Source of the DNA: Streptomyces venezuelae | GTDB taxonomy: Bacteria > Actinomycetota > Actinomycetes > Streptomycetales > Streptomycetaceae | Direction: 5' to 3' | DNA length: 64,000 bases | NCBI RefSeq assembly: GCF_008642295.1 | Contig: NZ_CP029190.1 | Coordinates: 744,001 to 808,000 of the forward strand | Part shown: positions 9,394-58,769 of the stretch, piece by piece | Layout: every line of letters begins with the position of its first letter | Numbering within the stretch: position 1 is the stretch's first letter | Made by a program: the position numbers and the translations under genes | The notes under the pieces: generated by a model | The model's input: only the letters and a program-made list of their open reading frames with translations | Told to the model about the DNA's origin: nothing | Databases searched by the model: none

Positions 9394-9420
9394 GGCTGGG
9401 CGCAAGCACTGCGCCCAGCC
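9394..9420. terminator. bidirectional hairpin after the kinase gene
   Basis: GGCTGGGCGCA and TGCGCCCAGCC form a perfect 11-base stem with a five-base loop. A shortened version (GGCTGGG/CCCAGCC) occurs at the same place relative to the pirin gene 3' end at 58649. That suggests it originally served two convergent genes, the kinase and pirin. Confidence 0.75.
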
Positions 9421-9514
9421 CCCGTCCATACGAACCAGCAGGTCAGCGCACACGACCTCGCGGCTTCAGGTGGGTCGGAGGGAGCTCGGGAGCCGGAAGC
9501 GGAGGGCCGTCGTA
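9394..9514. repeat. left direct repeat: pirin 3' fragment (candidate att site)
   Basis: These 121 bases align without a gap to 58649-58769, with 100 matching positions by hand count. Read on the minus strand the copy encodes the last 23 residues of pirin with two substitutions and ends in KPRGRVR and a stop, but the rest of the gene is absent. The remaining differences are mostly silent, so this copy came from a functional pirin gene. It marks the left end of the island. Confidence 0.8.
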
Positions 9515-9570
9515 CGTCGGCATGATCACCGTTCACCTCCTCGGCGGGGCTCGCCTCCTGATGACGCAGT

Positions 9571-12261
9571 TCAGCGAAGGCGGCGAAGATACGGGTCGAA
9601 CGGCCGGGACGGCTCCAGGTGCATGCGGACGTCGACGATGTCCATGCCGTCAGGGCGCGCGATGACGGGGTTGAGGTCAGCTTCGGTGATGTGTGGCAGG
9701 TCGTTCGCCATCCGGGACAGCCTCAGCAGTAGTTGGCCGAGGCCATCCAGGTCGACCGGTTCCGCACCGCGGTGGCCGAAGAGCAGCGGGGCGCAGCGTG
9801 GTGCGCTCACCAGGTCGTGGACGTCCTGGTCGGTGAGTGGCGCGAGCCGGGCGGCGTGGTCGGCGAGCACCTCGGTCGCCGTGCCGCCGAGGCCGAACAT
9901 CACCAGGGGCCCGAAGACCGCGTCCTGCACGACACCGGCGAAGAGTTCGACGCCGCGCCGTGCCATGGGCTGCACCAGGACACCGGCGAGCTTCCCGCGG
10001 AAGCGGTCGGCCAGGTCCCGGTAGGCGGCCGATACCTGGGCGTCGTCCTGGAGGTCGAGCCGGACGGCGTGTTCCTCGCTCTTGTGGACAAGGCCCGGCC
10101 AGTACGCCTTGAGCACCGCGCCACCGTACCCGTCACGGAACCGGAGCGCGGCGGAGACGGCGTCCGACTCGTTGTGCGCCCACTCCCACGGAACCTGCGG
10201 GATGCCGTAGCAGTCCAGGAGACCGGCACATGTACCAGGGTCCGCCCAGCCGCCGTCGGGATGGGCGGAAAGGAATTCGGTGACGACTTCGACTGCGCGC
10301 GAGGGGTCGATGGCCTGAAGATCGGCCACGGTTCCTGTCGGGCGGGCGAGCCACTCGGTGCGATCGGCCGCATGCACCAGTGCCTGCGCCGCGGACTGCG
10401 GATCGGCGTAGGCGGGGACGGTGGCGTGGTGGCCCGTGAGGTAGCCGACGGAGGCGGTCTGACCGGGAAGCACGACAGCGACGGGAAAGGCCTGCTCCTC
10501 GGCCGTGCGGACGACCGAGCGGGTGAGGTCGTCCCCGGTGGCGGTGGCGACTGCCGTGGGGACCAGGGACACGGTCAGGGCGTCCACCTCGCCGCTGCCG
10601 ATCAGCTCGACCAGGCAGTCGCGCAGTTGTGCCTCGGAGACGGCCGCAGTGGTGTCGACCGGGTTGGCGGCGGTCGCACCCCCGGGGAGGATGCCCAGGA
10701 GCCGCCTGGTCAGTTCTGCTGACAGGACCGGTACGACCAGTCCGGACTCGACCACGGCGTCCGCCGCGAGGACGCCGGTGCCGCCGGCGTTGGAGACGAC
10801 GGCGACCCTGCGCCCGGCCGGGAGCGGCTGTGAGTGCAGGAACGCGGCCGTGCCGAGGAGTTCGGCGATGCCGCGGGTGGAGGTGACCCCGGCCTGCCGG
10901 AAGAGGGCCTGGCGGGTCATGGTGGGCGTCGCCGCGGCGGCGGTGTGCGAGGCGGCTGCCCGTCGGCCGACCGCCGTGCGCCCGGCGTCGACGGTCAGGA
11001 CGGGAATGCGGCGGGTGACCCGGCGGGCGGTACGGGAGAAGGCGCGGGCGTTGCCGAACGACTCCAGGTGGAGCAGTGCCAGATCGGTCCGGCCGTCGGT
11101 CTCCCACCACTGGAGCATGTCGTTGCCGCTGACGTCGTACTTGTCGCCGAGCGACACGAAGGTCGAGACCCCGATGCCCAGACGGGACAGCCCGGTCAGC
11201 AGGGCGATGCCCACGCCGCCGGACTGGACGGCGACTCCGGCGGTGCCGGGGCTGGGGAGGTCGGCGGCGAAGGTGGCGTCCAGCCGTACGCCGTCCTCGG
11301 TGTTGGCCAGGCCCAGGCAGTTCGGGCCGACGAGCCGCATCCCGTGGCGGCGGCACGCTGTGAGCAGGCCGCGCCCGTGTTCGCGGTCCAAGCCGGCCGA
11401 CAACACCAGCAGTGCGCGCACACCGTGCCTTCCGCACTCCTCGGCGACGGTCGGCACGGCTGCGGCCGGCACGGCGAGGACGGCGAGGTCGGGTGCCTGT
11501 GGCAGGTCGGACACGGAACGGTACGTGGTCACGCCGAGGACGGCCGCCGCCACCGGGTGCACGGCGAACAGCCGGCCGTTGAAGCCTCCCAGGCGCAGGT
11601 TGTTCAGGACGGCGCGCCCGACGGAGCCCGGCCGCCGGCCGGGCCCCACGACCACGACCGACCGGGGCCTGAGCAGCGGCTGGAGGCTGGCGACGTCGGC
11701 CGTCCGGCCGCGCGCCTCGACGGCGGACAGATACGTCTCGTCCGCCTCCAGCCGCACCAGGCAGTGCACCTCCGGCCCGTCGAAGTGCCGCGTGACGCTC
11801 AGCCCCAGGTCCGCGAAGACCTTGAGCACGTCACGGTTCTCCGAGAGGGCGTCGGCCGCGAACGCCGTGATGCCGTCGTTCCTCGCCGCGGAAGCGGCGT
11901 GTTCGAGCAGCACGGTGCCCACGCCCCGGTGGTGCCAGCGGTCCGCGACCGCCAGGGCCAGGTCCCCGTGATCGGTGCCCGGCAGCCGCTCGTACTCGAC
12001 GAGCCCGACCGCCTCGCCCCCCGCCTCGGCGAGCAGGGCCCTGCGTCCTGGGGAAGCCGGACGGCAGACCCGCTCGGCCGACTGCTCCGCCGAACGCCGG
12101 TTCGCCGTGAAGAAGCGCAGGCGCAGGTTCTCCGGCGACATCCCGGCGTAGAACGCGTCCACCTCTGCCAGATCGTCCGGCCGGACCGGCCGGACGGACA
12201 CGGTCGCCCCGTCCGCGAGGAGAACGTGCACCTCGCGCGGCTCCGCCACCGTCGGTGCCAT
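9571..12261 (-). CDS. GNAT domain fused to NDP-forming acyl-CoA synthetase
   Basis: The 896-residue protein starts with a GNAT acetyltransferase domain (about 1-175; acetyl-CoA loop near RWHHRGVGTVLLEHAA). A CoA-binding Rossmann domain follows (LRPRSVVVVGPGRRPGSVGR), then a ligase-CoA domain (AVQSGGVGIALL, SLGDKYDVSGNDML, SHTAAAATP) and a C-terminal ATP-grasp part (GYGGAVLKAYWPGLVHKSEE, FGLGGTATEVLAD). The ligase half resembles ADP/GDP-forming acetate-CoA ligases. In related Pat proteins the ligase part is often only regulatory for the acetyltransferase. It could make ATP from acyl-CoA or acetylate enzymes such as acetyl-CoA synthetase. The ATG is preceded by GAGGAGG. It is divergent from the CBS gene at 12523. 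Confidence 0.85.
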   Translation of the reverse strand: MAPTVAEPREVHVLLADGATVSVRPVRPDDLAEVDAFYAGMSPENLRLRFFTANRRSAEQSAERVCRPASPGRRALLAEAGGEAVGLVEYERLPGTDHGDLALAVADRWHHRGVGTVLLEHAASAARNDGITAFAADALSENRDVLKVFADLGLSVTRHFDGPEVHCLVRLEADETYLSAVEARGRTADVASLQPLLRPRSVVVVGPGRRPGSVGRAVLNNLRLGGFNGRLFAVHPVAAAVLGVTTYRSVSDLPQAPDLAVLAVPAAAVPTVAEECGRHGVRALLVLSAGLDREHGRGLLTACRRHGMRLVGPNCLGLANTEDGVRLDATFAADLPSPGTAGVAVQSGGVGIALLTGLSRLGIGVSTFVSLGDKYDVSGNDMLQWWETDGRTDLALLHLESFGNARAFSRTARRVTRRIPVLTVDAGRTAVGRRAAASHTAAAATPTMTRQALFRQAGVTSTRGIAELLGTAAFLHSQPLPAGRRVAVVSNAGGTGVLAADAVVESGLVVPVLSAELTRRLLGILPGGATAANPVDTTAAVSEAQLRDCLVELIGSGEVDALTVSLVPTAVATATGDDLTRSVVRTAEEQAFPVAVVLPGQTASVGYLTGHHATVPAYADPQSAAQALVHAADRTEWLARPTGTVADLQAIDPSRAVEVVTEFLSAHPDGGWADPGTCAGLLDCYGIPQVPWEWAHNESDAVSAALRFRDGYGGAVLKAYWPGLVHKSEEHAVRLDLQDDAQVSAAYRDLADRFRGKLAGVLVQPMARRGVELFAGVVQDAVFGPLVMFGLGGTATEVLADHAARLAPLTDQDVHDLVSAPRCAPLLFGHRGAEPVDLDGLGQLLLRLSRMANDLPHITEADLNPVIARPDGMDIVDVRMHLEPSRPFDPYLRRLR

Positions 12262-12377
12262 GACCGGCCTCCTCTCGTGAGGCTGTGGGCAGGGGCCTGC
12301 ATGCGAACCGCGCCACTCCGGATGTTCGCCCTCCCCCATCGTGGACTCCCTGAAGCACACCCGGCCACGCCGACGAG

Positions 12378-12392
12378 GGGCCACTCGGACCT
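12378..12392. promoter_or_regulatory. candidate island operator
   Basis: GGGCCACTCGGACCT matches the recurrent GGGNCC-N3-CGGNCC palindrome. It lies in the divergent gap between the acyl-CoA synthetase gene (start 12261) and the CBS gene (start 12523). A second palindrome, CACAGGGCCCCTGTG at 12404-12418, is symmetric except for its centre base. Confidence 0.5.
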
Positions 12393-12522
12393 CCGCTCTG
12401 ACCCACAGGGCCCCTGTGCGGGAAGTGCTCGGGTGCTCAGATGGAGGAAGGGTCCAAGCCAACCTGTACGCACCTCACGGGAGCGGCAGGTTCCATGACC
12501 GAACACGGCGAAGGAGCCGGTC

Positions 12523-13167
12523 ATGCCCGCATCCCGCTACACCGTCAGTGACGTCATGACGCACACCGCGATCGCCATCGGCCGCGAGGCTTCCTACAAG
12601 GAGATCGTCGAACTGATGCACGCATGGAAGGTGAGTGCGGTTCCCGTCCTGGAAGGTGAGGGCCGCGTCGTCGGAGTCGTCTCCGAGGCCGACCTGCTGC
12701 CGAAGGAGGAGTTCCGCCGCGAGGAGCCCCACCTCCCGGACCAGCTGGAGGAGGCCGCCAAGGCGGGTGGCGTGCTCGCCGAGGACCTGATGTCGAGTCC
12801 GGCGGTCACCGTGCACCCGGACGCCACCATCGCCGAGGCGGCCCGCATCATGGCCCGCAAGCACGTCAAGCGCCTGCCGGTGGTGAACAGGATCGGCATG
12901 CTGGAGGGCGTCGTCAGCCGCAGCGACCTGCTGAAGGTCTTCCTGCGCCCCGACGAGGAGCTGGCGGAGGAGATCCGCCAGGCCGTGCTCACCGAACTCG
13001 CACCCGGCGTGCCGCTGGACTTCACCGTGGAGGAGGGTGTCGTCACCCTCCGGGGACCGGTACACGACCGGGCCCTGATTCCCCTCCTTGCCCGCGCCAT
13101 CCGCGCCGTCGAAGGGGTCGTCGACGTCCGGATGGAACTCGGCGGGGCGGTATCGGCCGACGCGTAG
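12523..13167 (+). CDS. CBS-pair protein with C-terminal BON domain
   Basis: The 214-residue protein has two CBS motifs (about 5-60 and 85-145; TVSDVMTHTAIAIGREASY and EDLMSSPAVTVHPDATIAE) and a BON domain from about 150 (PLDFTVEEGVVTLRGPVHDR). CBS pairs bind adenosine ligands such as AMP or ATP. BON domains bind membranes or other ligands. The target here is unknown. AAGGAG lies eight bases before the ATG. It is one of six such proteins in the island and lies next to the response regulator gene. It is very similar to the copy at 51915 (shared VLEGEGRVVGVVSEADLLPK). Confidence 0.88.
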   Translation: MPASRYTVSDVMTHTAIAIGREASYKEIVELMHAWKVSAVPVLEGEGRVVGVVSEADLLPKEEFRREEPHLPDQLEEAAKAGGVLAEDLMSSPAVTVHPDATIAEAARIMARKHVKRLPVVNRIGMLEGVVSRSDLLKVFLRPDEELAEEIRQAVLTELAPGVPLDFTVEEGVVTLRGPVHDRALIPLLARAIRAVEGVVDVRMELGGAVSADA

Positions 13168-13296
13168 GCCGGCGTGGGCACCGTCCGCCCGCAAGAGCAG
13201 CCCCGGGCCTGCCTCGGTTCGAAGGTGCGAAGCGCCCTTCTCCTGAGACAATTCGGGTGGAAGCGTGCGTAGCGTGATCCGGATCAGGCGGCGACC

Positions 13297-14019
13297 ATGT
13301 CGGACGTACCCGGCGCCTCCCCCGAGGTGCCGATCAAGGTGTTCCTCCTCGACGACCACGAGGTGGTCCGCCGTGGACTGCGGGACCTCCTCGACGCCGA
13401 GCCCGGCATCACCGTCGTGGGCGAGGCCGGCAGCGCGGAGCAGGCACTGGCCCGGGGGCCGGCCCTCCGTCCCGACGTCGCCGTGCTCGACGTCCGGCTG
13501 CCCGACGGCGACGGCATCACCGTCTGCCGGGAACTGCGCTCGCGTATGCCGGAGCTGGCTTGCCTGATGCTGACCTCGTTCGACGACGAGGACGCCCTGC
13601 TGGACGCGATCATGGCGGGGGCGGCCGGATACGTACTCAAGCAGATCAAGGGCTCGGATCTCGTCTCCGCCGTCCGGATGGTGGCCACCGGCCAGTCCAT
13701 GCTCGACCCGGCCACCACCGCGCGCCTGATGCACTCCCTACGCGACCCGGAAGCCGCCAAGGACCCCGAGGACGCCCGGCTCGCCACCCTGTCCGAGCGG
13801 GAACGGGCAGTCCTGGAACTGATCGGCGACGGCCTCACCAACCGCCAGATCGCCAAGCAGCTCTACCTCTCGGAGAAGACGGTCAAGAATCACATCTCCA
13901 GGCTGCTGGGCAAGCTGGGCGTGGAACGCCGGGTCCAGGCGGCAGTGATCGCCGCGCAGGTCCACGGCCAGGGACACCCGGGCGAAACCACACCGAAAGC
14001 CGATCGTCACACTGAGTGA
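13297..14019 (+). CDS. NarL/LuxR response regulator, DevR/DosR/OsdR-like
   Basis: The 240-residue protein has a receiver domain with acidic pocket D19-D20, phospho-acceptor D65 (VAVLDVRLPDGDG), T93 (LMLTSFDDE) and K115 (GYVLKQIKG). It ends in a LuxR-type helix-turn-helix (LSERERAVLELIGDGLTNRQ, LYLSEKTVKNHISRLLGKLG). The LSEKTVKNHIS recognition helix closely matches mycobacterial DosR. In S. coelicolor the corresponding regulator is OsdR. It probably controls the island through the recurrent GGGNCC-N3-CGGNCC sites. Its likely kinase partner is not adjacent but lies at 27595. The ribosome site is weak, and no clear copy of the palindrome was seen just upstream. Confidence 0.92.
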   Translation: MSDVPGASPEVPIKVFLLDDHEVVRRGLRDLLDAEPGITVVGEAGSAEQALARGPALRPDVAVLDVRLPDGDGITVCRELRSRMPELACLMLTSFDDEDALLDAIMAGAAGYVLKQIKGSDLVSAVRMVATGQSMLDPATTARLMHSLRDPEAAKDPEDARLATLSERERAVLELIGDGLTNRQIAKQLYLSEKTVKNHISRLLGKLGVERRVQAAVIAAQVHGQGHPGETTPKADRHTE

Positions 14020-14145
14020 CACGTGCGCCGCCGCGCGAATCGCACCGGATCGACCCCGCGCGGGGATGGCGCGTCGCGTCCCGTCTCCACGCGCAGGTGC
14101 CTGGCTGACGGCGACGCCCCCGGCGGGAGACGGAAGGAGATCACG

Positions 14146-14805
14146 GTGAGGCACAGAGAAGTGGGCGAACTGATGACACGCGAGGTCGTCACGGTTCCCC
14201 GGGGCGCGACGTTCAAGGACATCGTGCGGACACTCGGCGAGCAAAGGGTGTCCGCGGTGGCGGTCACCGACGACGACGGCCACCCGCTTGGCGTGATCTC
14301 CGAGAGCGACCTGCTGCCGAAGACCGCCGACCAGGGCGACTGGTTCAGCTCCCTGCCACACCCCGACCCCTGGGAGAGCGACAAGGCCACCGGCACCAGG
14401 GCGGAGGAGCTGATGTCGGCGCCGGCCGTCTGCGCGCGGCCGGACTGGACGGTGGCGGAGGCCGCCCGTCTCATGGAGAGCCAGCAGGTGAAGAGGCTAC
14501 TGGTGGTCGACGACGCCGACCTGCTGGTGGGCATCGTCACCCGTGGCGACCTGCTGCGGATCTTCCTGCGCGACGACGACGCCATCCGCCACGAGATCAC
14601 CGCGGATGTCCTCGGCGGGACCTTGCACCTGGAGCCCACCGCCGTGTCCGTCGAGGTGGTGGACGGGCAGGTGACCCTGCACGGCGCGGTGCGCTTCCGG
14701 AGCCTCGTCCCCGTCGTCGAGCGGCTGTGCCGAACCGTCGACGGCGTCGTCCGGGTCACGGAGCACCTCGCGTGGGAGACCGACGACACCGGCACGGGAC
14801 GCTGA
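14146..14805 (+). CDS. CBS-pair protein with BON domain
   Basis: The 219-residue protein begins at a GTG preceded by GGAAGGAGA. An earlier in-frame ATG at 14023 would add 41 residues unlike the family, so it is rejected. The CBS motifs are VGELMTREVVTVPRGATFKD and EELMSAPAVCARPDWTVAEA. The BON part is VSVEVVDGQVTLHGAVRFRS. It lies downstream of the response regulator gene on the same strand. The ligand and partner are unknown. Confidence 0.85.
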   Translation: MRHREVGELMTREVVTVPRGATFKDIVRTLGEQRVSAVAVTDDDGHPLGVISESDLLPKTADQGDWFSSLPHPDPWESDKATGTRAEELMSAPAVCARPDWTVAEAARLMESQQVKRLLVVDDADLLVGIVTRGDLLRIFLRDDDAIRHEITADVLGGTLHLEPTAVSVEVVDGQVTLHGAVRFRSLVPVVERLCRTVDGVVRVTEHLAWETDDTGTGR

Positions 14806-14920
14806 GCCGACCGGGTCGCTCGCCGGCTGCCGGCTCAGGCCGTGCTGTTTCGCCCGGCAGCCTGCGGGAGTGGCTACCGGTATCCGCACGTCGTGGTGCC
14901 CGGCCGGTTCGGCGCCGCAC

Positions 14921-14959
14921 AGGGCCATGCGGGCCCGCCGTGCGGGTCCACTCGGCCCT
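14921..14959. promoter_or_regulatory. candidate island operators
   Basis: Two copies of the palindrome lie 9 bases apart: AGGGCCATGCGGGCCC at 14921-14936 (imperfect) and GGGTCCACTCGGCCCT at 14944-14959. The second ends 64 bases before the start of the CBS gene at 15024. Confidence 0.5.
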
Positions 14960-15023
14960 CGCCGGGCCTTGCGCCCCGATCTACGGTGAACTCCATGGAG
15001 CGTGATGGGGAAGGAGCTGGGCG

Positions 15024-15515
15024 ATGAACGTGTCCGCATCCATGTCCGCGCCCGCAGTGTCCGTCGACGGCACGACGACCATCGGTGAGGCAGCCCGCCT
15101 GATGGACATCCATGGCGTCGGCTGCCTCGTGGTGACGGAGGGCGAAGTGCTGCGCGGCATCGTCACCGACCGTGATATAGCCGTCCGTGCGATGGCCCCA
15201 GGGCTCGACCGCGACGAGCCGGTGGCGGAGGTCATGACCACCCCGACCGTCACCGTCGACGTGGCCGACGACATCCACGCCGCCTATCGAACGTTCCGCA
15301 ACAGCGGTGTCCGGCGGCTCCCCGTTCTCGACGGACAGCGTGTCGTGGGCATGTTGACAGTGGACGACCTGCTGATGGACGTCTTCCGGAGGGTGGCCGA
15401 TCTGCTCGGCCCGATCGCCTGGAGCGTGCTGGAGGAGCCTCCAGGCCCCCAGGACGAAATCGGCCCGCACACACGAATGGACGGAAAGAGTCCGCCCGCT
15501 TCTCGCGGATCCTGA
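15024..15515 (+). CDS. CBS-pair protein without BON domain
   Basis: The 163-residue protein has two CBS motifs (MSAPAVSVDGTTTIGEAARL at the start; VAEVMTTPTVTVDVADDIHA in the middle) with the typical GIVTDRDIAVRAM segment. A disordered C-terminal tail (EEPPGPQDEIGPHTRMDGKS) replaces the BON domain. It resembles Hrp1-like proteins of the mycobacterial DosR regulon. AAGGAG precedes the ATG at about ten bases. Confidence 0.85.
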   Translation: MNVSASMSAPAVSVDGTTTIGEAARLMDIHGVGCLVVTEGEVLRGIVTDRDIAVRAMAPGLDRDEPVAEVMTTPTVTVDVADDIHAAYRTFRNSGVRRLPVLDGQRVVGMLTVDDLLMDVFRRVADLLGPIAWSVLEEPPGPQDEIGPHTRMDGKSPPASRGS

Positions 15516-15915
15516 TCGTGCGGTGCACGGCCGTCAGCCGCTTCTCCGCATCCTCACGGGACTCCTCCCGTCACCTTCATCACACCACGGGCCGCAGACG
15601 GCCGCCAGGGCCGAACGGTCCCTTTCCGGCCCCGGACAGCCCTCGCGCTCCGCGGGCGAGTGGGCCACAGGTGGTCCGGCGCGGGAGCGCCTCCGACGTC
15701 GGCTGCCGGGCCCCGCCCGTCACCTGCCGCCGGGGCGTCCTAGGACCGCCCCCGCGAAGGCGACCGGTGCGTCGATGCGGCACACCATCGCCTCCGTAGC
15801 CGACGATGGCGACGACGGGCGACTGGCCTCGGGGGCGGATCGCGTGTCGCTGTCCAGCGCTTGAGGTCGCGGAGGCCGGGACGGTGATGCCGTCCGGTCA
15901 CGGGAGCAGGGATCG
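15516..15915. other. intergenic region with an operator-like site
   Basis: No convincing gene was seen in these 400 bases. They contain a small hairpin, ACGGGACTCCTCCCGT at 15556-15571, just after the CBS gene, and GGGCCGAACGGTCCC at 15608-15622, a near-perfect copy of the island palindrome. The palindrome is about 300 bases before the hydrogenase protease gene, farther than at other sites, so an unrecognised promoter or small transcript may start here. Confidence 0.4.
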
Positions 15916-16437
15916 ATGAAGCGGCCAACCGGTACGGCGGTCATCGGGATCGGCAACGAGTTCCGGCGGGATGACGGGGTCGGGTGGGCCGTCGTCTCCC
16001 TGCTGAGGGACCGGGCCGCGCAGGGGCCGCTGCCTTCGGACACCCTTCTCGCGCAGTGCGACGGAGACCCTGGCCGGTTGATCACCCTCTGGGAGAACAC
16101 CGGGCTGACCGTCCTCGTCGACGCCTGCTTTCCCCCCTCCGCGGTACCCGGGCGGGTGCATCGGTGGTGTGCGGCCTCGGGCGATGATCTGGGCGCGGCC
16201 ACTCCGGGGCGGCACAGCACGCACGGGCTCGGTCCGGCCGAGGCGTTGCGTCTCGCCGAGGCGCTCGGACGCGCTCCCGGTCACCTCATCGTGTACGCGG
16301 TCGAAGGAGCCGACCGTTCGCTGGGCACGGGGCTCACTCCTGCGGTGGCGTGCGCTGTGCCCCGTCTGGCTCGGCAGGTCGAAGCGGACGTCGAGCAGTA
16401 CAGCGAGGCTCGGGCGCGCGGCCTCGGGGCAGGGTGA
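15916..16437 (+). CDS. [NiFe] hydrogenase maturation endopeptidase
   Basis: The 173-residue protein belongs to the HycI/HyaD/HoxW peptidase family, which trims the C-terminus of the hydrogenase large subunit after nickel insertion. It has the N-terminal GIGNEFRRDDGVG motif whose acidic residue binds nickel, VLVDAC in the second strand, and the STHGLGPAEALRLAE segment with the conserved histidine. The hydrogenase genes begin 200 bases later, separated by a hairpin. No hypABCDEF genes are in the window, so the remaining maturation proteins must be encoded elsewhere. Confidence 0.9.
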   Translation: MKRPTGTAVIGIGNEFRRDDGVGWAVVSLLRDRAAQGPLPSDTLLAQCDGDPGRLITLWENTGLTVLVDACFPPSAVPGRVHRWCAASGDDLGAATPGRHSTHGLGPAEALRLAEALGRAPGHLIVYAVEGADRSLGTGLTPAVACAVPRLARQVEADVEQYSEARARGLGAG

Positions 16438-16442
16438 GCGCC

Positions 16443-16476
16443 GGCCCGCCCTCGGGCGGCGGCCCGAGGGCGGGCC
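16443..16476 (+). terminator. hairpin between protease and hydrogenase operon
   Basis: GGCCCGCCCTCGGG faces CCCGAGGGCGGGCC as a perfect 14-base stem with a six-base loop, starting six bases after the protease stop. It suggests that the hydrogenase structural operon starts from its own promoter in 16477-16638. Confidence 0.75.
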
Positions 16477-16638
16477 CGTCCGACGGAACACGCCAGACGG
16501 CTTCGCGGGTCGACGACCTCGCACCTGACATGCTGTCACATGTTGATCGCGCCTGTACGGCAGGCCGAGTGCAGTGGTCTGCGGCGGACGGTCCGGTCCT
16601 CCTCCACGACCGAGGCGTGCGAAGACGGAGGCCACACC

Positions 16639-51339: not shown

Positions 51340-51433
51340 GGTGGGCCGGACGGTCCCGCGGTGTGCACCGCGCGGCCCTTCCGGCACGGACGCCGCCTGG
51401 CGCAGGGTGAGGGGGAAGGGTTGGAGGCAGACC

Positions 51434-51904
51434 ATGAGCACCATGCACGGCATCCTCGAAGAGATGGCTCCGGAAGCCCGCGAGGCCCTGCTGGCCCACT
51501 CCCGCCAGGTGACGTTCCCGGCCGGTACCCGCATCTTCAAGGAGCGCCAGCGGGCCGAGAAGTTCTGGATCATCGAGTGCGGCACCGTGGACCTCGACAT
51601 TCACGTCCCCGGCCACAAGGACGCCGTCATCGACACCCTCGGCTACGGCGAACTGCTCGGCTGGTCCTGGATGTTCCGCCCGTACACATGGCACCTCGGA
51701 GCCACCGCCTCCCGCGAGGTGCGCGCCCTGGAGTTCGACGCCGCCGCCGTACGGGAGCTGTGCCAGGAGGACTCGGCTGTCGGCCGGTCCGTCTCCACCG
51801 CCGTGGCCGCGGTCATCGCCGACCGGCTCGACTCCGCCCGCACCCGGCTCCTCGATCTGTTCGCCCCCTACGGCAGCGGAACCCCGCTCGCCCACGCACG
51901 CTGA
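51434..51904 (+). CDS. stand-alone cyclic-nucleotide-binding protein
   Basis: The 156-residue Crp-type beta-roll protein (PAGTRIFKERQRAEKFWIIE, HVPGHKDAVIDTLGYGELLG) ends RTRLLDLFAPYGSGTPL, the same tail as the protein at 27062. There is no helix-turn-helix. GGAGG precedes the ATG. A CBS-BON gene follows after ten bases, so here a nucleotide-binding beta-roll is probably co-expressed with a nucleotide-binding CBS protein. Confidence 0.85.
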   Translation: MSTMHGILEEMAPEAREALLAHSRQVTFPAGTRIFKERQRAEKFWIIECGTVDLDIHVPGHKDAVIDTLGYGELLGWSWMFRPYTWHLGATASREVRALEFDAAAVRELCQEDSAVGRSVSTAVAAVIADRLDSARTRLLDLFAPYGSGTPLAHAR

Positions 51905-51914
51905 GGATCCCGCC

Positions 51915-52568
51915 ATGACCTCCACCCCGTACACCGTCGCCGACGTCATGACCACCAAGGTCATCGCCGTCACCCCCACCACCGGCTTCAAGGACATCGC
52001 CGCCGCAATGGAGCGGTGGAAGGTGACCGCGCTCCCCGTCCTCGAAGGCGAGGGCCGTGTCGTCGGCGTCGTCTCCGAGGCCGACCTCCTCCCCAAGGAG
52101 GAGTTCCACGAGCACCGCCCGGGCCTGATCGAGCAGATGCGCCGCCTAGGCGACACCAACAAGGCCGGCTCCACCTGCGCCGGGGACCTCATGACCACCC
52201 CGGCGGTCACGATCCGCCCCGACGCCACCCTCCCCCAGGCCGCCCGCCTCATGGCCGACCGCCACATCAAGCGCCTCCCGGTCGTCGACGCCGACGGCAC
52301 CATCAAGGGCATCGTCAGCCGAGCCGACCTCCTCAAGGTATTCCTCCGCACCGACGAGGAACTGACCGCCGAGATCCGCCAGAGCGTGGTCGAGCGCCTG
52401 TTCCCGCTCTCCCACGAAGCCGTGAAGGTCACGGTCTCCCAAGGGGTCGCCACCCTGACCGGCGACATCCGGGACAGCAGCCTGATCCCCTTGGCCGATC
52501 GCCTCACCCGCTCCGTTGAGGGCATCGTCGACGTCCGCTGCCGGCTCACGTCACGTACCACGGCATGA
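51915..52568 (+). CDS. CBS-pair protein with BON domain
   Basis: The 217-residue protein has CBS motifs VADVMTTKVIAVTPTTGFKD and GDLMTTPAVTIRPDATLPQA and a BON domain (VKVTVSQGVATLTGDIRDSS). It shares VLEGEGRVVGVVSEADLLPK with the protein at 12523, its nearest paralog in the window. It is ten bases downstream of the cNMP-binding gene. Confidence 0.88.
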   Translation: MTSTPYTVADVMTTKVIAVTPTTGFKDIAAAMERWKVTALPVLEGEGRVVGVVSEADLLPKEEFHEHRPGLIEQMRRLGDTNKAGSTCAGDLMTTPAVTIRPDATLPQAARLMADRHIKRLPVVDADGTIKGIVSRADLLKVFLRTDEELTAEIRQSVVERLFPLSHEAVKVTVSQGVATLTGDIRDSSLIPLADRLTRSVEGIVDVRCRLTSRTTA

Positions 52569-52597
52569 ACAGCCACCGGCTGAGGCGGCCGGCTGGC

Positions 52598-53216
52598 TCA
52601 GGCCTGCGCCAGCGGTGACCTGTCCAGGATGCCGAAGACGGCCACCCCGATCAGTACCGCGCCCACAGGCTCGAGGCCGTCGATGAGCGGCAGGCTGATG
52701 GCCAGCGAGCCCGCCTGGTAGGAGCTCTGCGACAAGACCAGTGCGATCACGCCCACGAGGACGACCGCATACAGCTCCCAGTGGCCGAGTGCGCCGAACC
52801 CGTCGGTCCGGAACCGACCCCCGACGCTCTTCGTCAGGCCGTCGAGCAGAGCGAATGTCAGTGCGGCGCCGGTGGCGTAGAGGGCCGTTCGCATGGTCGC
52901 CAGGCTTCGCCGACCGATCTCCGCCAGGAGCACGACCGCGCTCGCGATGGCCACGAGCACGGGAAGCCATTGCCGAACGGCGGGGATGGCCGTGCCTTCC
53001 GGAGCCGGCGGCAGCACGGCCAGGAATATCGCGACACCCCCGGTCGTGCAGGCGATGCCGGCCGCATCCTGGCGACGCAGCCTCATCCTGCGGCCTCAGG
53101 CCAGGAGTGGCAGGGCGAAGAACGAGATCGGTGGCGGCCACTGGCTGGATTAGGACCAGGGGCCCGAAGGTCAGGGCGGACAACAGAGCGGCCACCACCG
53201 CCACTGCGGTATGCAT
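52598..53216 (-). pseudogene. DMT/EamA-type membrane protein, disrupted
   Basis: The downstream part is an open frame of 162 residues with four to five membrane segments (GIACTTGGVAIFLAVLPP, PVLVAIASAVVLLAEIG, LYAVVLVGVIALVLSQSS, AVLIGVAVFGILDRSP). It looks like the second half of a drug/metabolite-transporter family protein. The first part is still readable upstream (ALLSALTFGPLVLIQPVAAT) but in another frame, with a stop after LPLLA and missing segments. A frameshift and deletion therefore broke the gene. The 52598-53086 frame could still make a truncated membrane protein. Confidence 0.65.
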
Positions 53217-53319
53217 GGGCGAATACCACCGCACGGCCCGGGCCGGTTCGTGCGCGACACGCGCACAGCCTGGCCCACTGGGGCGCGCCAAGCCTCACAT
53301 CGACGGCAGACAAGAGGTT

Positions 53320-53353
53320 GGGCCCTTCGGACCCGGCGCGGCCCCTGTCGGCC
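53320..53353. promoter_or_regulatory. candidate island operators
   Basis: GGGCCCTTCGGACCC at 53320-53334 is a clear copy of the motif, 100 bases before the universal stress gene start. A weaker copy, GGCCCCTGTCGGCCC, follows at 53338-53352. Confidence 0.5.
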
Positions 53354-53433
53354 CTGTGGGGCGAGCGGGCACGGCAGGAAGCTGGACTGTGTAATCAGTC
53401 CGCGCACGCGTGGGAACCGCAAGGAGGCTCGCC

Positions 53434-54291
53434 ATGACGGCCCTGGTGATCGTGGGCGTTGACGGCTCCGAGGAGAGCCTCGCAGCAGTGGCGTGGGCCG
53501 CACAGGAAGCAGCGCTTCGGGATGTGGCGCTGGACCTGCTCCACGTGGAGACTGGGCCGGAAACCCCTGAAGGCCGGTCCTCCCCACAGCCGAACCGATC
53601 CGCAGCGCTCCTCCACGACGCCGCCGAGCTGGCGCGCCGGCACCAGCCGTCCGTAGAGGTGAGCACACGCAGTGTCCGGGGCCGCCCCCCAGAGGTGCTG
53701 ACCCATGCGGCGGACGAGGCAGAGCTGACGGTGCTGGGCTCCCGAGGCCTCGGCGGCATCAGCGGATATCTCATCGGCTCGGTGTCGCTGGCGGTCGTCG
53801 GCAGGGCCCGGCACCCGGTCGTCCTCGTCCGGACGCCCGCGGACGGAACGGGGGACGCCCCCGCTGCCGGCGGGATCGTCGCAGGTGTCGACCTCGCCCA
53901 CATCAGCGACCGGCTCCTCGGTTTCGCCTTCACCGAGGCCGCGCGCAGGGGCGGCGCCCTGCACATCGTGCATTGCTGGAGCCTGCCGCCCGTATACGTG
54001 TACGGCGGGGTGATGGACCCGCACATCGGCGACGAGCTCGGAGAGCATGCTGCGCACCGGCTGACGGAACTGCTGCAACCCTGGCAGAAGACCTATTCGG
54101 GAGTCAGCGTCACTCACGAGGTAGTCACCGGTTCGCCCGGCCTGCGGTTGGTGAGCGCGGCGCAGGGAGCAGCGCTCCTGGTCGTCGGCCGCCGCAGCCG
54201 CAAGGTACCGCTCGGCCCGCACATCGGCCACGTCGCACACGCGGTGATCCACCACAGCCCCGCACCAGTCGCGCTGGTGCCCCTGGACTGA
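53434..54291 (+). CDS. universal stress protein, two domains
   Basis: The 285-residue tandem UspA protein has domain one VIVGVDGSEESLAAVAWAAQ with ATP loop GSRGLGGISGYLIGSVSLAV. Domain two (IVAGVDLAHISDRLLGFAFT) ends GRRSRKVPLGPHIGHVAHAV. The start at 53434 is chosen because AAGGAGG precedes it. Its C-terminal half is closest to that of the protein at 35013. It converges with the OsmC gene. Confidence 0.9.
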   Translation: MTALVIVGVDGSEESLAAVAWAAQEAALRDVALDLLHVETGPETPEGRSSPQPNRSAALLHDAAELARRHQPSVEVSTRSVRGRPPEVLTHAADEAELTVLGSRGLGGISGYLIGSVSLAVVGRARHPVVLVRTPADGTGDAPAAGGIVAGVDLAHISDRLLGFAFTEAARRGGALHIVHCWSLPPVYVYGGVMDPHIGDELGEHAAHRLTELLQPWQKTYSGVSVTHEVVTGSPGLRLVSAAQGAALLVVGRRSRKVPLGPHIGHVAHAVIHHSPAPVALVPLD

Positions 54292-54349
54292 CCGGGACAC
54301 GTTCCGCCCGGCCTGATCGAGCCCGCAACAGGGTGCAACAGGGTGCCGG

Positions 54350-54796
54350 CTACGCCTCCAGCTCGATGCCGATCTCCGGCGGGTGGCGGAGCGTGTTGTG
54401 GACGGTGCAGTGGGAGGCGACGGCCAGGAGGCCTGCGCGGCGCTGCTCGGGCAGTCCGGGCGGCGGCACGATCACGATGCGGACGGACGCGACGCGGGCA
54501 GGGTGGTCGGCAGCCAGCGTGAACCGGGTACGCACGAGCAGGCCGTCGCGCGACAGGCCGTGGCGGTGCAAGTAGCGCCCCGCGTAGTGGGCGACGCACG
54601 TGGTCAGCGACGCCGCGAACAGCTCGGTGGGCGTCGGCGCGCGGTCCGTTCCGCCCGCGTCCACGGGCTGGTCGACCAGGAACCGGTGGCCACGTACCTC
54701 GACGGCGTAGACATCACCTTCGACGTGCACGGCGTCGATCCGGTGCTCGTCCTCCGAAGGCCGTTGGGCAGCCTTCTCAGGCGCCGGGTGCGTCAT
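54350..54796 (-). CDS. OsmC-family protein
   Basis: The 148-residue protein has the two redox cysteines of the OsmC/Ohr fold, in FAASLTTCVAHYAGRYL and VASHCTVHNTL, with PTPTELFAASL before the first. Members reduce organic or lipid hydroperoxides with thiol cofactors. It would protect against peroxides when oxygen returns. Whether it is OsmC or Ohr in specificity cannot be seen. Confidence 0.88.
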   Translation of the reverse strand: MTHPAPEKAAQRPSEDEHRIDAVHVEGDVYAVEVRGHRFLVDQPVDAGGTDRAPTPTELFAASLTTCVAHYAGRYLHRHGLSRDGLLVRTRFTLAADHPARVASVRIVIVPPPGLPEQRRAGLLAVASHCTVHNTLRHPPEIGIELEA

Positions 54797-54859
54797 GACA
54801 GCACCTCCCTTTGCGGGGCACTCGCAGCATGAGCACCCCGCGAACAGCGATCAACGTTC

Positions 54860-55279
54860 TCACGAGGTCGCGCAGACCGTCTCCACGAAATGCCCGACCT
54901 GCTCCTCGGACAGGTGACGGGCCAGGTCCGCCTCGCTGATCATGCCGACGAGGCGGTGGTCGGCGATCACCGGCAGGCGCCGGATGCGGTGCTGCTCCAT
55001 GGTCCGCAGAACCTGCTCGCTGTCGGCATCGGCGTCGACGGTGACCGGCTTGCCCTGAGCCAGCTGGCCCGCCGTCATGCGGTGCGGGTCCTTGCCCTTG
55101 GCCAGGCACTTCACCACGATGTCCCGGTCGGTGATGATGCCGTGCAACCGGTCGTCCGGGCCACAGATGGGAAGAGCTCCGACATCGAGCTCGCCCATGC
55201 GCCGCGCGGCGTCCATGAGGGTTTCGTTCTCCTGCACGCAGTTGGCGCCCGCGTGCATGATGTCCCGGGCGGTGGTCAT
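54860..55279 (-). CDS. Hrp1-like CBS-pair protein
   Basis: The 139-residue protein consists of two CBS motifs only: RDIMHAGANCVQENETLMDA with GIITDRDIVVKCLAKGKDP, and QHRIRRLPVIADHRLVGMIS. Length and sequence match hypoxic response protein 1 (Rv2626c) of the DosR regulon. That protein has a zinc-binding cysteine near the same place; here a Cys at residue 14 is present. The start lies 54-114 bases from two island palindromes. Confidence 0.9.
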   Translation of the reverse strand: MTTARDIMHAGANCVQENETLMDAARRMGELDVGALPICGPDDRLHGIITDRDIVVKCLAKGKDPHRMTAGQLAQGKPVTVDADADSEQVLRTMEQHRIRRLPVIADHRLVGMISEADLARHLSEEQVGHFVETVCATS

Positions 55280-55332
55280 GGCGGTGCTCTCCTTTCGCCC
55301 CTCCCCCTTCATCTCGTGTCCGCTGCCACTGT

Positions 55333-55393
55333 GGGCCCTCGGACCTGTGTCCGGCGATAGGTCCTTCGGTTTGCGATGGGGCCCAGTCGGCCC
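55333..55393. promoter_or_regulatory. candidate island operators before the Hrp1-like gene
   Basis: GGGCCCTCGGACC at 55333-55345 (one base short of the usual spacing) and GGGGCCCAGTCGGCCC at 55378-55393 lie upstream of the leftward Hrp1-like gene. GGTCCTTCGGTT between them is a weaker match. The right-hand copy is directly followed by the integrase relic. Confidence 0.5.
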
Positions 55394-55419
55394 TTCCGCG
55401 CAGAGCGGTCTGCCGGACG

Positions 55420-55612
55420 CCGCTGCCGGCCTGGCAGCCCGGTCCAATGCCTACGACAAGTTGAAGGCGATCCTTCTCGACTCCCATTGCCTGGGACTCT
55501 TTGACGACAACCCGCTCGTCGGAGTCAAACCTCCCCCGTACGACCCCAGGCGGGCCGTAATCCCCTCCCCGGAGCAGCTCCCGGCCGTACGTGTCGCAGC
55601 GACCGAAACGAC
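55420..55612 (+). pseudogene. tyrosine-recombinase (integrase) relic
   Basis: The short open stretch NAYDKLKAILLDSHCLGLFD followed by NPLVGVKPPPYDPRRAVIPS and PEQLPAVRVAA matches the end of the core-binding domain and the linker to the catalytic domain of actinomycete phage-type integrases. None of the catalytic R-H-R-Y residues are present. Only about 60 codons remain. It is 3 kb inside the right repeat, where an element's integrase is expected. Confidence 0.7.
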
Positions 55613-55635
55613 GGGCTCCAGCACCCGGAGGACCT

Positions 55636-55813
55636 GTGACCCGCGACGAAGCCCTCGCAATGATCACTGGATTTCCTCAACTTCGTCGAGGCGCTCAGTG
55701 CACGGACGGAACTCGCCCTGCCGGAACGGGACTACCCCTCACTCACCACCCTCGACGGGTGCGCCCGCTACGTCGCCACGCACACCGCAGGCCCGCAGAC
55801 GGGCCCGTCGTAA
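55636..55813 (+). pseudogene. acyl-carrier-protein-like gene with internal deletion
   Basis: The start (GGAGG then GTG; VTRDEALAMI) and the C-terminal half (DFLNFVEALSARTELALPER, TTLDGCARYVATHTAG) belong to a short phosphopantetheine-carrier protein. They are in different frames. The middle, including the serine that carries phosphopantetheine (normally in an LDSLDF-type context), is deleted. About 60 of roughly 85 codons remain. Confidence 0.65.
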
Positions 55814-55818
55814 CCGCT

Positions 55819-55958
55819 CTGGTCGGTCCGTGGAGGGCGTCGTCGACGTCCGCTCCCTGCTTGAGGCGCACACCGAACCACAAGCCCCGGGAAAGCTGCT
55901 GCTCCAGGAGAAGACGAGGACGAGAGGCAGGCCCGGCAATGAGCCGGCATGCATGTGA
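55819..55958 (+). pseudogene. CBS-BON protein C-terminal remnant
   Basis: The frame starts with RSVEGVVDVRSLLEAH, nearly the same as the RSVEGIVDVRCRL end of the BON domain in the protein at 51915. It runs on for about 30 unrelated residues. No start or upstream domain is present. It looks like the broken end of another CBS-BON gene. Confidence 0.5.
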
Positions 55959-56187
55959 CGGCAGGCTGTCTGAGTATGGAACTCAAGGCAGACGTGTCGC
56001 TGTCCACGGAGGTGAGCGCGATGACGCTTCCGTCGCAGCGCCGGATCGATGGGGCGGTCGATCCGGACGACCGTTGTGGCCGCGGGCGCCCATTCCCGGA
56101 TGCGCCAGGGGCGCCGAACCAGCGGTTCCGGCCCATCCACCAGGCGCCGCGCGCGCCGGAGGCCATCACGACTGACGGGGCACCGCT

Positions 56188-57210
56188 GTGACCACGGCAG
56201 CAACGCCGGACCCCTCCCCCGCCGGGATTCCCGATGGTGCGGGGACATCGGAGAACCCGTCCAGTCAGCCCGTCGTCACCTTGACGATGAATCCCACTGT
56301 CGATCTTTGCTGGGAGGTCGAACACCTGGAGGGCACCGGCAAGAACCGTGCCCGGGTCCGAGCGGTGGCCGTAGGGGGCGGAGGAATCAACGTCGCACGT
56401 CACGTCGGGCGGTTCGGAGGACGGGCCACCGCCGTCCACACCGCGGGAGGCGAGGTCGGTCTGCGCCTCAACCGGCTGCTGGACGAAGAAGGCGTCGACC
56501 ACGTCGCCGTCGGCATCGACGATGACACCCGCGAAGCACTCGTGCTCTTCGAGACCAGTTCGCATCGCAGTTACCACGTCGTGCCACCCGGCCCGCAGCT
56601 ACGGGAGCACGAGGGAGAACGGTGTCTGGAGGTGCTGGAGCAGCTCATCGGCGGTTGTCCGTACGTCGTGGCCAGCGGCAGCCTGCCAGGCGGATTGCGA
56701 GACGACTATTTCGCGGCCGTTGCCCGCCGTGTCAGGGAAGCCGGGTCCCGGCTGATCCTGGACACCTCCGGGCCGGCGCTTCGGGCCGCGCTCGCCGAGG
56801 GCGTGTTCCTGTTCAGGTGCAACCGGACAGAGGCCGAGAGCCTGACCGGTCGGCCCGTCACCGGTTTCGATGACGCCCTGGCCCTCAACGAACGGCTGGT
56901 CACCACGGGGGCCGCCGAGATCGCCGTCACCACGCTCGGAGCGCTGGGCGCGCTGTGCTCGACCCGCGATGGCCACACCGAGCTCCATGTACCGCCGCTG
57001 CCCGGCGAGGCCTTGAGCGATGCAGGTGCGGGAGACAGCATGGTCGCCGCCGTCACCACACAGCTGGCTGCCGGAGAGGATCCGGTCAGCGCCTGCGCTC
57101 TGGGGGTGGCCACAGCCGCTGCGGCGATGCTCACCCCCAGCACCGAACCCTTCGATGTGGACGTGGCACGGTCGCTCCGCTCGCAGGTGCGGACAGCCAC
57201 CCGTCTCTGA
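56188..57210 (+). CDS. pfkB: PfkB-family sugar kinase
   Basis: The 340-residue ribokinase-family protein resembles the DosR-regulon kinase PfkB (Rv2029c) and 1-/6-phosphofructokinases. It has TLTMNPTVDLCWEVEHL, the substrate loop VAVGGGGINVARHVGRFGG, YVVASGSLPGGLRDDYFAAV, NRTEAESLTGRPV and the C-terminal catalytic motif LSDAGAGDSMVAAVTTQLA with the GAGD aspartate. The start is a GTG at 56188 with a poor ribosome site. The unmatched first 30 residues could mean the true start is further in, for example the ATG at 56287 in LTMNPTVD. Confidence 0.9.
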   Translation: MTTAATPDPSPAGIPDGAGTSENPSSQPVVTLTMNPTVDLCWEVEHLEGTGKNRARVRAVAVGGGGINVARHVGRFGGRATAVHTAGGEVGLRLNRLLDEEGVDHVAVGIDDDTREALVLFETSSHRSYHVVPPGPQLREHEGERCLEVLEQLIGGCPYVVASGSLPGGLRDDYFAAVARRVREAGSRLILDTSGPALRAALAEGVFLFRCNRTEAESLTGRPVTGFDDALALNERLVTTGAAEIAVTTLGALGALCSTRDGHTELHVPPLPGEALSDAGAGDSMVAAVTTQLAAGEDPVSACALGVATAAAAMLTPSTEPFDVDVARSLRSQVRTATRL

Positions 57211-57223
57211 GAGCCGCGACACG

Positions 57224-57581
57224 GACCCCGCACGCAGGCCGCACTCCTGCCCGCCGCCGTAGACGACCGGCTCCAGCTGCACACCGTCGCGTACGTACAG
57301 CTCGGCCGCGCCCCGCTTGAGCGGCGTCGCAATGGAAGTGTGCGCCCCGCGCGTGGGCGAGGGCAGCGAGTTCCGCAACTGGCTGGAGGGCGCCGGTCTC
57401 GTTGTTTGGCGGCCATGACCGATACGAGGACCGTGTCGTCGCTGAGCGCCGCCGCGAGGTCGGCCGGCTCCACGAGACCCGTGCCGTCCACGGGCAGCAC
57501 CGTGATCCGAGCACCGTGGAGCCGCTGGAGGGCCGGGCAAGTTTCGAGTACCGCGGGGTGCTCGGTGGCCTGGGTGATCAC
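57224..57581 (-). pseudogene. cysteine desulfurase remnant
   Basis: Pieces of a NifS/IscS-type PLP enzyme are recognisable: VITQATEHPAVLETCPALQR, VLVSVMAA, then in another frame NNETGALQPVAELAALAHAR and FHCDAAQA, then in a third LKRGAAELYVRDG and VVYGGGQECGLRAG. The PLP lysine region between the second and third pieces is deleted. About 120 of 380 codons remain with at least two frame changes. Confidence 0.7.
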
Positions 57582-57899
57582 GTGTGAGTGGCTAGGTAGC
57601 CGGTGAGGGGACGGCGGTGACGCCGACGGCGGTGCATCCGGCGGCCTCGTTGAGGCCGGGCCGACGCCCGAGCGCAACTCGCCGCCCTCATCGGCAGCCG
57701 GACCATGACGCCACCGTCATCGCGGCAGCCGTACTCACCGCCGGCTTTGGCCTCCTCGCGGCCCGCTGGATCACGGAACACCCCACCGACCGCTGACCGG
57801 AGTACGGGAAGAGGCTCGGCGGCACCGAAACGCCCTCTTCTGCGCGGCTCTGAGCTGCCTTACCGTCATACACGATCCTGGTGCGTCAGGTTGATCTTT
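57582..57899. other. decayed sequence with a hydrophobic fragment
   Basis: No intact gene was found in these 318 bases. A short open stretch on the plus strand encodes HDATVIAAAVLTAGFGLLAA and ends RWITEHPTDR at 57798. It looks like the end of a small membrane protein with no visible start. Confidence 0.35.
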
Positions 57900-58577
57900 A
57901 TGCCGTACTTGGTGTGGTACACCCCGTTGGCCACCCGCGACCTGCTCCAGTGCCTCCAGGACTACGAAGGTGGCTCTTGTGAGTGCGCGCAGGCAGAGAA
58001 GAGCCCGTGGATGTTCGTGCGCCGGCAACGCCGCGGCGGGCGGCAGACTCTGGTAGCCGCGCATCTGCCCGTGACCCATGTCGCCACGCCCCATGAGAGC
58101 GACAAGCACAAGGCGATGAAGGAGCGGATCGCCCGTACGGCGTCCCGTCACGGCCTCGACGTACAGGTCGAGGCCCGGTCCTCCGACCGGCGGATCGTCA
58201 CGGACGTCCTGGTCTCCGGGCCCGCGGGCCGTGTCGGCTGGGAAGCCCAGTACTCCCCCATCAGCGCGAGCACGGTCCACCGACGCTCCGCCCATGCGCG
58301 CGCGAACGGCATAGCCCCGCTGTGGGTCACCGGTGATCCCGCATCCCCGCTGATCGACCGGGCACCATGGGCCCGCGTGGACGACGTCCCCTGGCAACGC
58401 ATCGCCTCACCCCTCGCCATGCTCGTCCGCGGAGGCGTGCGGCACCTCCAGATATGGAAGTGCACGCCGGCCAGCCCGCGGCCCTCGACCAGCAGCCAGA
58501 TCTACCTACTCGTCAGTAAAGTCAGCAAAGGGTCAGCATTCGTCCGACCAAACCTGGTTACAGCCTGCAACACATGA
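57900..58577 (+). CDS. CoiA-like mobile-element protein with abnormal 3' end
   Basis: The 225-residue frame resembles the CoiA-like/nuclease-fold proteins often carried by Streptomyces plasmids and integrative elements. It shows PHESDKHKAMKERIARTASR, RIVTDVLVSGPAGRVGWEAQ, YSPISASTVHRRS, GIAPLWVTGDPASPLIDRAP and GVRHLQIWKC. After about residue 190 the sequence becomes unlike the family (SSQIYLLVSKVSKGSAFVRP) and AT-richer, so the true C-terminus is lost at the island edge. The ATG at 57900 begins MPYLVWYTPLATRDLL. Its stop lies 71 bases before the right repeat. Confidence 0.55.
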   Translation: MPYLVWYTPLATRDLLQCLQDYEGGSCECAQAEKSPWMFVRRQRRGGRQTLVAAHLPVTHVATPHESDKHKAMKERIARTASRHGLDVQVEARSSDRRIVTDVLVSGPAGRVGWEAQYSPISASTVHRRSAHARANGIAPLWVTGDPASPLIDRAPWARVDDVPWQRIASPLAMLVRGGVRHLQIWKCTPASPRPSTSSQIYLLVSKVSKGSAFVRPNLVTACNT

Positions 58578-58648
58578 GACTCGATCGTCGGCACCGAAGG
58601 CTCGCACCACCCTGCCCGGCGACTTCCTCTGCGAGACCAAAAACGGAA

Positions 58649-58769
58649 GGCTGGGCGCGAGCACGACACCCAGCCCTCGTCCACAGAAACCAGCAGGTCA
58701 ACGCACCCTTCCCCTGGGCTTCAGGTGGGCCGGGGGGAGTTCCGGGGCCAGAAGCGGAGGGCCGTCGTA
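58649..58769. repeat. right direct repeat: pirin 3' end (candidate att site)
   Basis: This is the partner of 9394-9514. It comprises the last 24 codons of the intact pirin gene and the following 49 bases with a weak hairpin (GGCTGGG/CCCAGCC). The two copies are in the same orientation and align without a gap. It marks the right end of the island. Confidence 0.8.

Follow-up and report, generated by a model that had tools for sequence, protein, structure and literature searches.

The window analysed here is a stretch of 64,000 nucleotides from Streptomyces venezuelae (positions 744001-808000 of a single 7.5-Mb contig), in which a 49-kb stress island with genes for low oxygen and dormancy lies between an intact pirin gene and a second, incomplete copy of the pirin 3′ end. 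With a probability of about 0.8, the window holds a decayed element that was inserted by an integrase at the pirin gene, and stress regulons similar to DosR/OsdR are a recurrent cargo at this site. Judged by sequence comparison, a family of tyrosine integrases has its attachment site at the pirin 3′ end in Streptomyces. The site, its core, the arm and the geometry of the integrase genes, one empty site of a stress island as well as the arm, relic and repeat of the window can be read directly from the sequences.

In the proposed mechanism the integrase would recombine at a core around pirin residues 269-276. Insertion would keep the pirin gene intact, the element supplying its 3′ end together with the arm DNA, and the original 3′ end would remain stranded as an orphan where the element ends distally. 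The recurrent cargo would be DosR/OsdR-like regulons, each equipped with a response regulator and a kinase, and several elements could accumulate there in tandem. The window would represent an old and decayed instance: pirin and the P′ arm form its right side, a trimmed orphan its left side, and the island lies between them together with a fragment of the integrase; its own island probably came in as cargo, and the element can presumably no longer move.

Attachment site and integrase family

A pirin 3′ end was located in 248 of the 295 genomes of the genus. A second match exists in 86 of the 295 by hand count, at most two candidates being scored per genome, and some of these are full paralogues, e.g. 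in G233 (G numbers denote genomes, L numbers loci). In the fetched examples a complete pirin gene is accompanied by an orphan 3′ end further downstream. The orphan matches the DNA of its own pirin gene over about 164-175 base pairs (bp) in G226, G242, G213, G243 and G019 and over 120 bp in G054. This homology starts 55.0 codons before the end in G226 (97.6 % identical to its own pirin), G242 (95.8 %) and G213 (87 %), 54.3 codons before it in G243 and G054 and 53 in G019; in G165, G227, G209, G131, G056, G183, G273, G225 and G285 the orphans begin at pirin residues 263-270. The first bases common to the orphans, ATGTTCTGGAACTGGATCGG or ATGTGGTGGAACTTC..., define the core, which was found in 15 orphans of relatives. 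Near it, on the element side, the octamer TGACSTGC is present in 10 of these 15 and absent from the orphans of G209, G131, G273, G225 and G285. Trimmed orphans are known from the window, G009, G006, BR123, S. gelaticus (L154) and S. xanthophaeus. One pirin gene of G227 (G227:C34:209928-210899) is only 56 % identical to that of the window and possesses the same kind of core and arm; thus, the integrase family tolerates diverged pirins.

Matches to the integrase profile PF00589 adjoin pirin ends in G070, G227 and G165. The pirin-site integrases are PF00589 proteins of 384-385 amino acids, and the two copies each of G227 and G165, 66-89 % identical, form one family. With the first codon placed by alignment to the G165 protein, the integrase gene starts 92-97 bp from the core in eight genomes (G165, G183, G056, G227, G131, G273, G070 and G226). 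The frame is broken in G070 and only a relic is left in G226; open full-length genes at the pirin site are found in G165, G183, G056, G131, G273 and G227. A tandem pair of such genes stands behind one orphan in G165 (L081:9438-12196) and likewise in G183 (L205:9964-12746). Furthermore, an excisionase-like open reading frame (ORF) of the HTH_17 type lies between pirin and integrase in G227. At an expectation value (E) of 1e-20, relatives of the integrase occur in 112 of the 295 genomes, many of them distant, and no relative was found in the phages and plasmids searched. Close members away from any listed pirin end are present in G268 and G212, and the far integrase copy of G243 has no recognisable pirin end adjoining it.

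Empty sites

The pirin gene of G242 is followed by an interval of about 60 kb which closes in an orphan, and G013 offers the corresponding two-sided empty site. Ten proteins upstream of the G242 pirin match G013 at 86-98 %, and eight proteins from beyond the G242 orphan (87-98 %) are situated directly behind the G013 pirin, about 70 bp past the stop codon, with nothing inserted. In a 60-base block around the stop codon the orphan of G242 shares 43 bases with G013, whereas the G242 pirin shares 27. A second empty site, one-sided and comprising two genes, results from the comparison of G183 with CB00455. Together with the integrase family, the core and the arm, the G242/G013 pair supports the proposal of an earlier note, made from the letters of the window alone, that integration had taken place site-specifically into a gene's 3′ end with the element providing a replacement end.

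Repeat, arm and integrase relic of the window

The 121-base repeat with 100 matches in the same orientation that the earlier note had reported was confirmed exactly by realignment; the two copies (Table 1) align on the same strand without gaps. Its edges are sharp, as the 20-base bins directly beyond either end match at only 3-8 of 20 positions. The 121-bp view has to be corrected in one respect, since the window repeat is the inner-trimmed part of a longer attachment site. The left copy consists of the last 23 pirin codons, the stop codon and 49 further bp. Between the copies 11 codons differ, 9 of them synonymously, which bears out the mostly silent differences noted before; random changes yield a mean of 8.4 non-synonymous codons and reached two or fewer in 0 of 5000 randomisations. 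The left copy has therefore diverged mostly as part of a working gene. Divergence of both ends mostly within working genes fits an end supplied by an element and not a local duplication followed by drift. The most similar pirin genes belong to Streptomyces genomes. Similarity to arm-bearing versus arm-less pirin ends does not resolve the native window copy, the right copy outscoring the left in 27 of 50 arm-bearing and 27 of 65 arm-less copies. A comparison of the guanine-plus-cytosine content, as suggested earlier, was carried out and gave no clear contrast between island and flanks.

Downstream of the pirin gene the window carries a cluster of three TGCTGAC-type repeats, putative arm-type sites of the integrase, which were recognised by a profile built with the window and BR123 excluded (Table 1). 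By a strict pattern such a cluster is present in 37 of 116 core-bearing copies classed as pirin versus 1 of 5000 random sequences, which preserve base composition only. The nhmmer profile detects the arm in 51 of the 116 copies (window included), at 290-339 bases from the core in 48 of the 51, and in 29 of 77 named loci; the sample is not random, being partly fetched for second pirin copies. The pirin genes of G242 and G226 have the arm, and that of the empty-site genome G013 has none. A Fisher test of the arm against a second pirin copy (15/19 vs 5/17, p 0.006) is only suggestive, with hand-joined counts and a sample partly picked for second copies.

From the integrase a relic of only 63-88 amino acids is left in the window. 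It was found only with pirin-site integrase proteins as queries, and the PF00589 profile gave no match within the bracketed interval at E 0.01. The combination of arm, integrase relic and orphan suggests that the right end of the window is best read as the attachment arm of the element.

Stress regulons as cargo

The bracketed interval of the window contains a LuxR-type response regulator and a GAF-containing HisKA_3 kinase among universal stress protein (USP) genes. In addition, CBS and Hsp20 genes are present, and the content of a stress island postulated in the earlier note was thus recovered. OsdR-like boxes (score 9) precede 11 of 41 island genes and 0 of 14 genes outside, with a matrix derived from only six published sites.

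Similar regulons are enclosed at the pirin site of other genomes. The 107-kb interval of G227 has open integrase genes at both ends and contains genes for a GAF-GAF-HisKA_3 kinase, a LuxR-type regulator, USP, CBS-BON, pyruvate formate-lyase, AdhE, GAPDH and a CoA-ligase. Genes resembling those of the window island amount to 31 inside this interval and 0 in 13 kb outside, to 22 and 0 in G226, and to 19 (12 of them at ≥50 % identity) and 0 in 20 kb in G242, the outside stretch compared being 13-20 kb in each case. The first interval of G243 has nine such genes, and the intervals of G213, G165, G070 and G054 have none. In G242 the interval holds the sole regulator copy at E 1e-60 (150 of 183 candidates scored); the copy of G013 is located 1.1 Mb from its own pirin. 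Among 80 named pirin loci, which cover up to 10 kb on each side, island-like genes lie downstream of pirin in 5 and upstream in 0, and an integrase downstream in 4 and upstream in 0. A count of the regulator by side (at most 200 kb downstream of pirin in at least 12 genomes, upstream in at least 3) was joined by hand and is not used as evidence.

The tandem array of G285 runs from pirin and arm over a first stress island and an orphan to a second arm and islands of the window type (regulator 89 %, kinase 80 %), whose nearest gene is 17.5 kb past the second arm. S. xanthophaeus NRRL B-5414 harbours a window-type island in the orientation of the window between an arm-bearing pirin and a trimmed orphan that matches its own pirin end in 82 of 92 bases. 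The window-type island of G243 is situated beyond an orphan and before an integrase copy, and in G215 arm and island follow downstream of pirin. Hence, the idea that a DosR-like regulon moves as one unit holds insofar as such regulons are cargo at the pirin site in several genomes. For the window copy itself present mobility is unlikely, because the left core is gone and only a fragment of the integrase remains.

Some observations concern the cargo of single elements. Streptomyces are regarded as aerobic, so the pyruvate formate-lyase and AdhE genes in the integrase-bearing island of G227 (L072:8673-10931 and L072:16400-19039) are unexpected. The pirin-site element of G070 (G070:C1:1510-1524 kb; L057, L058), whose integrase is split across two frames, includes defence-type genes of the pPIWI-RE and OLD-like kinds. 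Transposase genes lie near the integrases of G165 (10 proteins scanned). The NiFe-hydrogenase-like block of the window (Table 1) is 80-89 % conserved in the window-type islands of G243, G215, G285 and S. xanthophaeus.

Alternative explanations

A rather improbable alternative, though the likeliest of the three, accepts a pirin-site element but regards the island as a resident neighbour, which decay together with deletions or inversions left between the pirin ends. This would agree with the regulator of orthologous islands, found 97-153 kb downstream of pirin and outside an orphan (G070, G054 and G285) or elsewhere, with the island-like genes near the arm-less pirin of CB00455, and with a misplaced relic and a deoxynucleoside kinase gene (dNK) inverted relative to BR123. 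It is harder to reconcile with S. xanthophaeus, where pirin, arm, island and orphan have the same order and orientation, and with the window-type islands of G285 behind a second orphan with its own arm. Likewise, the stress islands of G227, G226 and G242 are inside attachment sites, that of G242 with an empty site, and BR123 has orphan and relic at the site but no stress-island gene in between, its island being on another contig of a draft assembly.

Several observations also weigh against an insertion with the island as cargo. The attachment core is not present at both ends of the window: the pirin side has it and the left copy does not, so the window is classed only as a decayed instance. 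The integrase relic is found near the pirin end with its reading direction towards pirin; the intact copies, by comparison, adjoin orphans, and this position and direction imply that the island has been rearranged. No empty site for the window's own insertion was seen among 97 pirin-downstream sequences, of which only BR123 has the outer gene of the window (dNK), in the other orientation. In the 120 bases before the stop block of G242 its two ends agree at 115 positions and its orphan and G013 at 105, and conversion between the ends is therefore possible. The arm was detected in 5 of 16 copies classed as orphan (G243, G285b, G131, G056 and L163), by a pattern-based label that wrongly counted the G226 orphan among the pirins and probably a pirin, L163, among the orphans, and also at pirins of G001, G012, G058 and G215 for which no second pirin end was found. 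Thus, the arm alone is no proof of an element, and by itself it may be an old scar. Orthologous islands exist 2.3 Mb from pirin in G012, on the other side of pirin in S. lavendulae and, inverted, outside the orphan in G054. Within 140 kb no orphan was seen in G215, and in CB00455 three island-like genes start 6.5 kb behind the arm-less pirin. Finally, among the matches listed, neither TraB/FtsK (PF01580) nor relaxase (PF03432), the only two families searched, occurs inside the intervals of 10 genomes including the window, and by these two profiles the elements do not qualify as actinomycete integrative and conjugative elements (AICEs) or integrative and conjugative elements (ICEs).

The repeat could also have arisen without an integrase, either when part of the pirin 3′ end was duplicated locally or when one pirin copy recombined homologously with another. 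The repeat identity of only 83 % and a left copy devoid of the core would be compatible with such an origin. It is nevertheless very improbable, for the synonymous nature of 9 of the 11 changed codons indicates that the left copy mostly diverged in a working gene, and orphans recur across species from one codon and beside an integrase. Chance or convergent similarity, such as a common terminator sequence, of which a hairpin-like downstream part of the left copy (by eye) might be reminiscent, is practically negligible in view of 100 of 121 matches versus 59 for the runner-up within the window (58 on the opposite strand) and of a coding frame shared with pirin.

Comparison with known systems

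The attB site of phiC31 lies within a pirin-like gene of Streptomyces and is an internal site used by a serine integrase. The family described here differs from this system in being a tyrosine integrase family at the pirin 3′ end.

The large islands PAISt, PAISs1 and PAISa1 of plant-associated Streptomyces are located at the 3′ end of bacA (PMC4057263). They resemble the window in the duplication of a gene 3′ end flanking the island, in their case 138-141 bp of bacA, and feature a tyrosine recombinase, an internal third copy (modules), and integrase remnants in decayed versions (PMC4057263). By analogy, the pirin site follows the mechanism by which PAISt occupies bacA. The differences lie in the target (pirin), in the core and in the cargo (a stress/dormancy regulon instead of virulence genes). 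The OsdRK region of S. coelicolor (SCO0167-SCO0219) and the DevR/DosR regulon are like the window in that USP genes cluster around a two-component system; in the accessible text this region is not described as mobile, and the word "island" occurs 0 times (PMC5069765). The accretion and decay of AICEs and ICEs at shared sites in Streptomyces is comparable to the pirin site: several elements are stacked, sister strains show the site empty, and decayed elements retain direct repeats and part of an integrase (PMC9513070). There, AICEs are defined by Rep and TraB and ICEs by conjugation genes, and the pirin intervals are without a listed match to PF01580 or PF03432; both "pirin" and "cupin" are absent from the main text (PMC9513070).

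No account of integration at the pirin site or of its stress cargo was found in the literature, as far as its texts were accessible. Within these bounds, what is new is the integration site with its family of integrases and its recurring cargo; the window itself belongs, in decayed form, to a kind of island already known.

A global stress or dormancy regulon is usually viewed as part of the core, vertically inherited regulation. Here, stress regulons with regulator and kinase sit between the attachment sites of integrases, in one case with an empty site in a sister genome. This would help to explain why the stress islands of Streptomyces differ in content, copy number and place, and core, arm and integrase constitute a candidate new site-specific integration system of the genus. 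More tentatively, and somewhat doubtful as yet, Streptomyces may share a dedicated class of mobile dormancy islands, DosR/OsdR regulons borne by an integrase, which insert at the pirin 3′ end, form tandem arrays and pass from species to species; every insertion would give the redox-related pirin a new C-terminus and terminator. If this is true, programmes for low-oxygen survival would be traded within the genus as complete packages that include sensor and regulator.

Further features of the window

The features of the window are compiled in Table 1. The 3′ end of the CoiA-like ORF overlaps the P′-arm DNA and is therefore probably not real coding sequence.

Table 1 Positions of features in the window (1 is the first nucleotide of the stretch)
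Feature	Position	Strand	Basis
Deoxynucleoside kinase (dNK), outside neighbour	8717..9373	+	domain search
Left repeat: orphan 3′ end of pirin, left over from the distal attachment site after trimming, without core	9394..9514	-	repeat alignment
Bracketed interval, stress island	9515..58648	.	domain searches
LuxR-type response regulator, DosR/OsdR-like	13297..14019	+	domain search
Block of Fe-S, cyclic nucleotide-binding (cNMP), NAD-binding and NiFe-hydrogenase-like genes	16690..21289	+	domain search
GAF-GAF-HisKA_3 sensor kinase, DosS-like architecture	27595..29292	-	domain search
Two universal stress protein genes	32269..34043	-	domain search
Phosphoenolpyruvate synthase	42584..45025	-	similarity
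GH65 family glycoside hydrolase/phosphorylase	45987..48386	-	domain search
CBS-domain gene adjoining the integrase relic	54860..55312	-	domain search
Relic of pirin-site tyrosine integrase	55344..55607	+	tblastn E 2e-24, 67-70 % identity over 63 amino acids
PfkB-family sugar kinase, within the bracketed interval	56188..57210	+	domain search
CoiA-nuclease-like ORF	57900..58577	+	domain search
P′-arm signature, three GTCAGYA-type direct repeats, 142-198 bp past the pirin stop	58500..58556	-	nhmmer E 1.1e-17
Right repeat: 3′ end of the intact pirin gene and downstream DNA	58649..58769	-	repeat alignment
Intact pirin gene, host of the attachment site	58698..59669	-	Pfam Pirin + Pirin_C
Attachment core (TTCTGGAACTGGATCGG, pirin sense) inside the pirin gene	58843..58859	-	core comparison

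On the left flank the stop codon of dNK is 20 bp from the repeat. The earlier note had assumed that dNK and pirin were simple convergent neighbours before the insertion and had asked for a relative with both genes adjacent. This assumption was not supported. The dNK gene occurs in at least 31 of 294 other genomes of the genus, and among the matches listed with both coordinates the nearest dNK-pirin pair is 40 kb apart (G307). The sole adjacency found is that of BR123 (L098), a draft assembly, in which pirin with arm, a 6.5-kb remnant, the integrase relic, a trimmed orphan and dNK follow each other, and dNK, about 520 bp behind the orphan, is co-directional with pirin. The window differs from BR123 in that its dNK and orphan converge, so one of the two must have undergone a further local rearrangement. 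An adjacency of dNK and pirin as the ancestral state was rejected, as it is absent from the listed coordinates of the at least 31 dNK genomes and the orientation in BR123 is opposite. Four 20-kb dNK loci (L035, L038, L040 and L042) have no common neighbour except one weak pair of 35 %; dNK appears as a solitary, wandering gene and is thus a poor landmark. Beside it, at 7207-8073 of the window, lies a second dihydropteroate-synthase-like gene; another match in the genome is at 4083486-4084306, with 79 % DNA identity.

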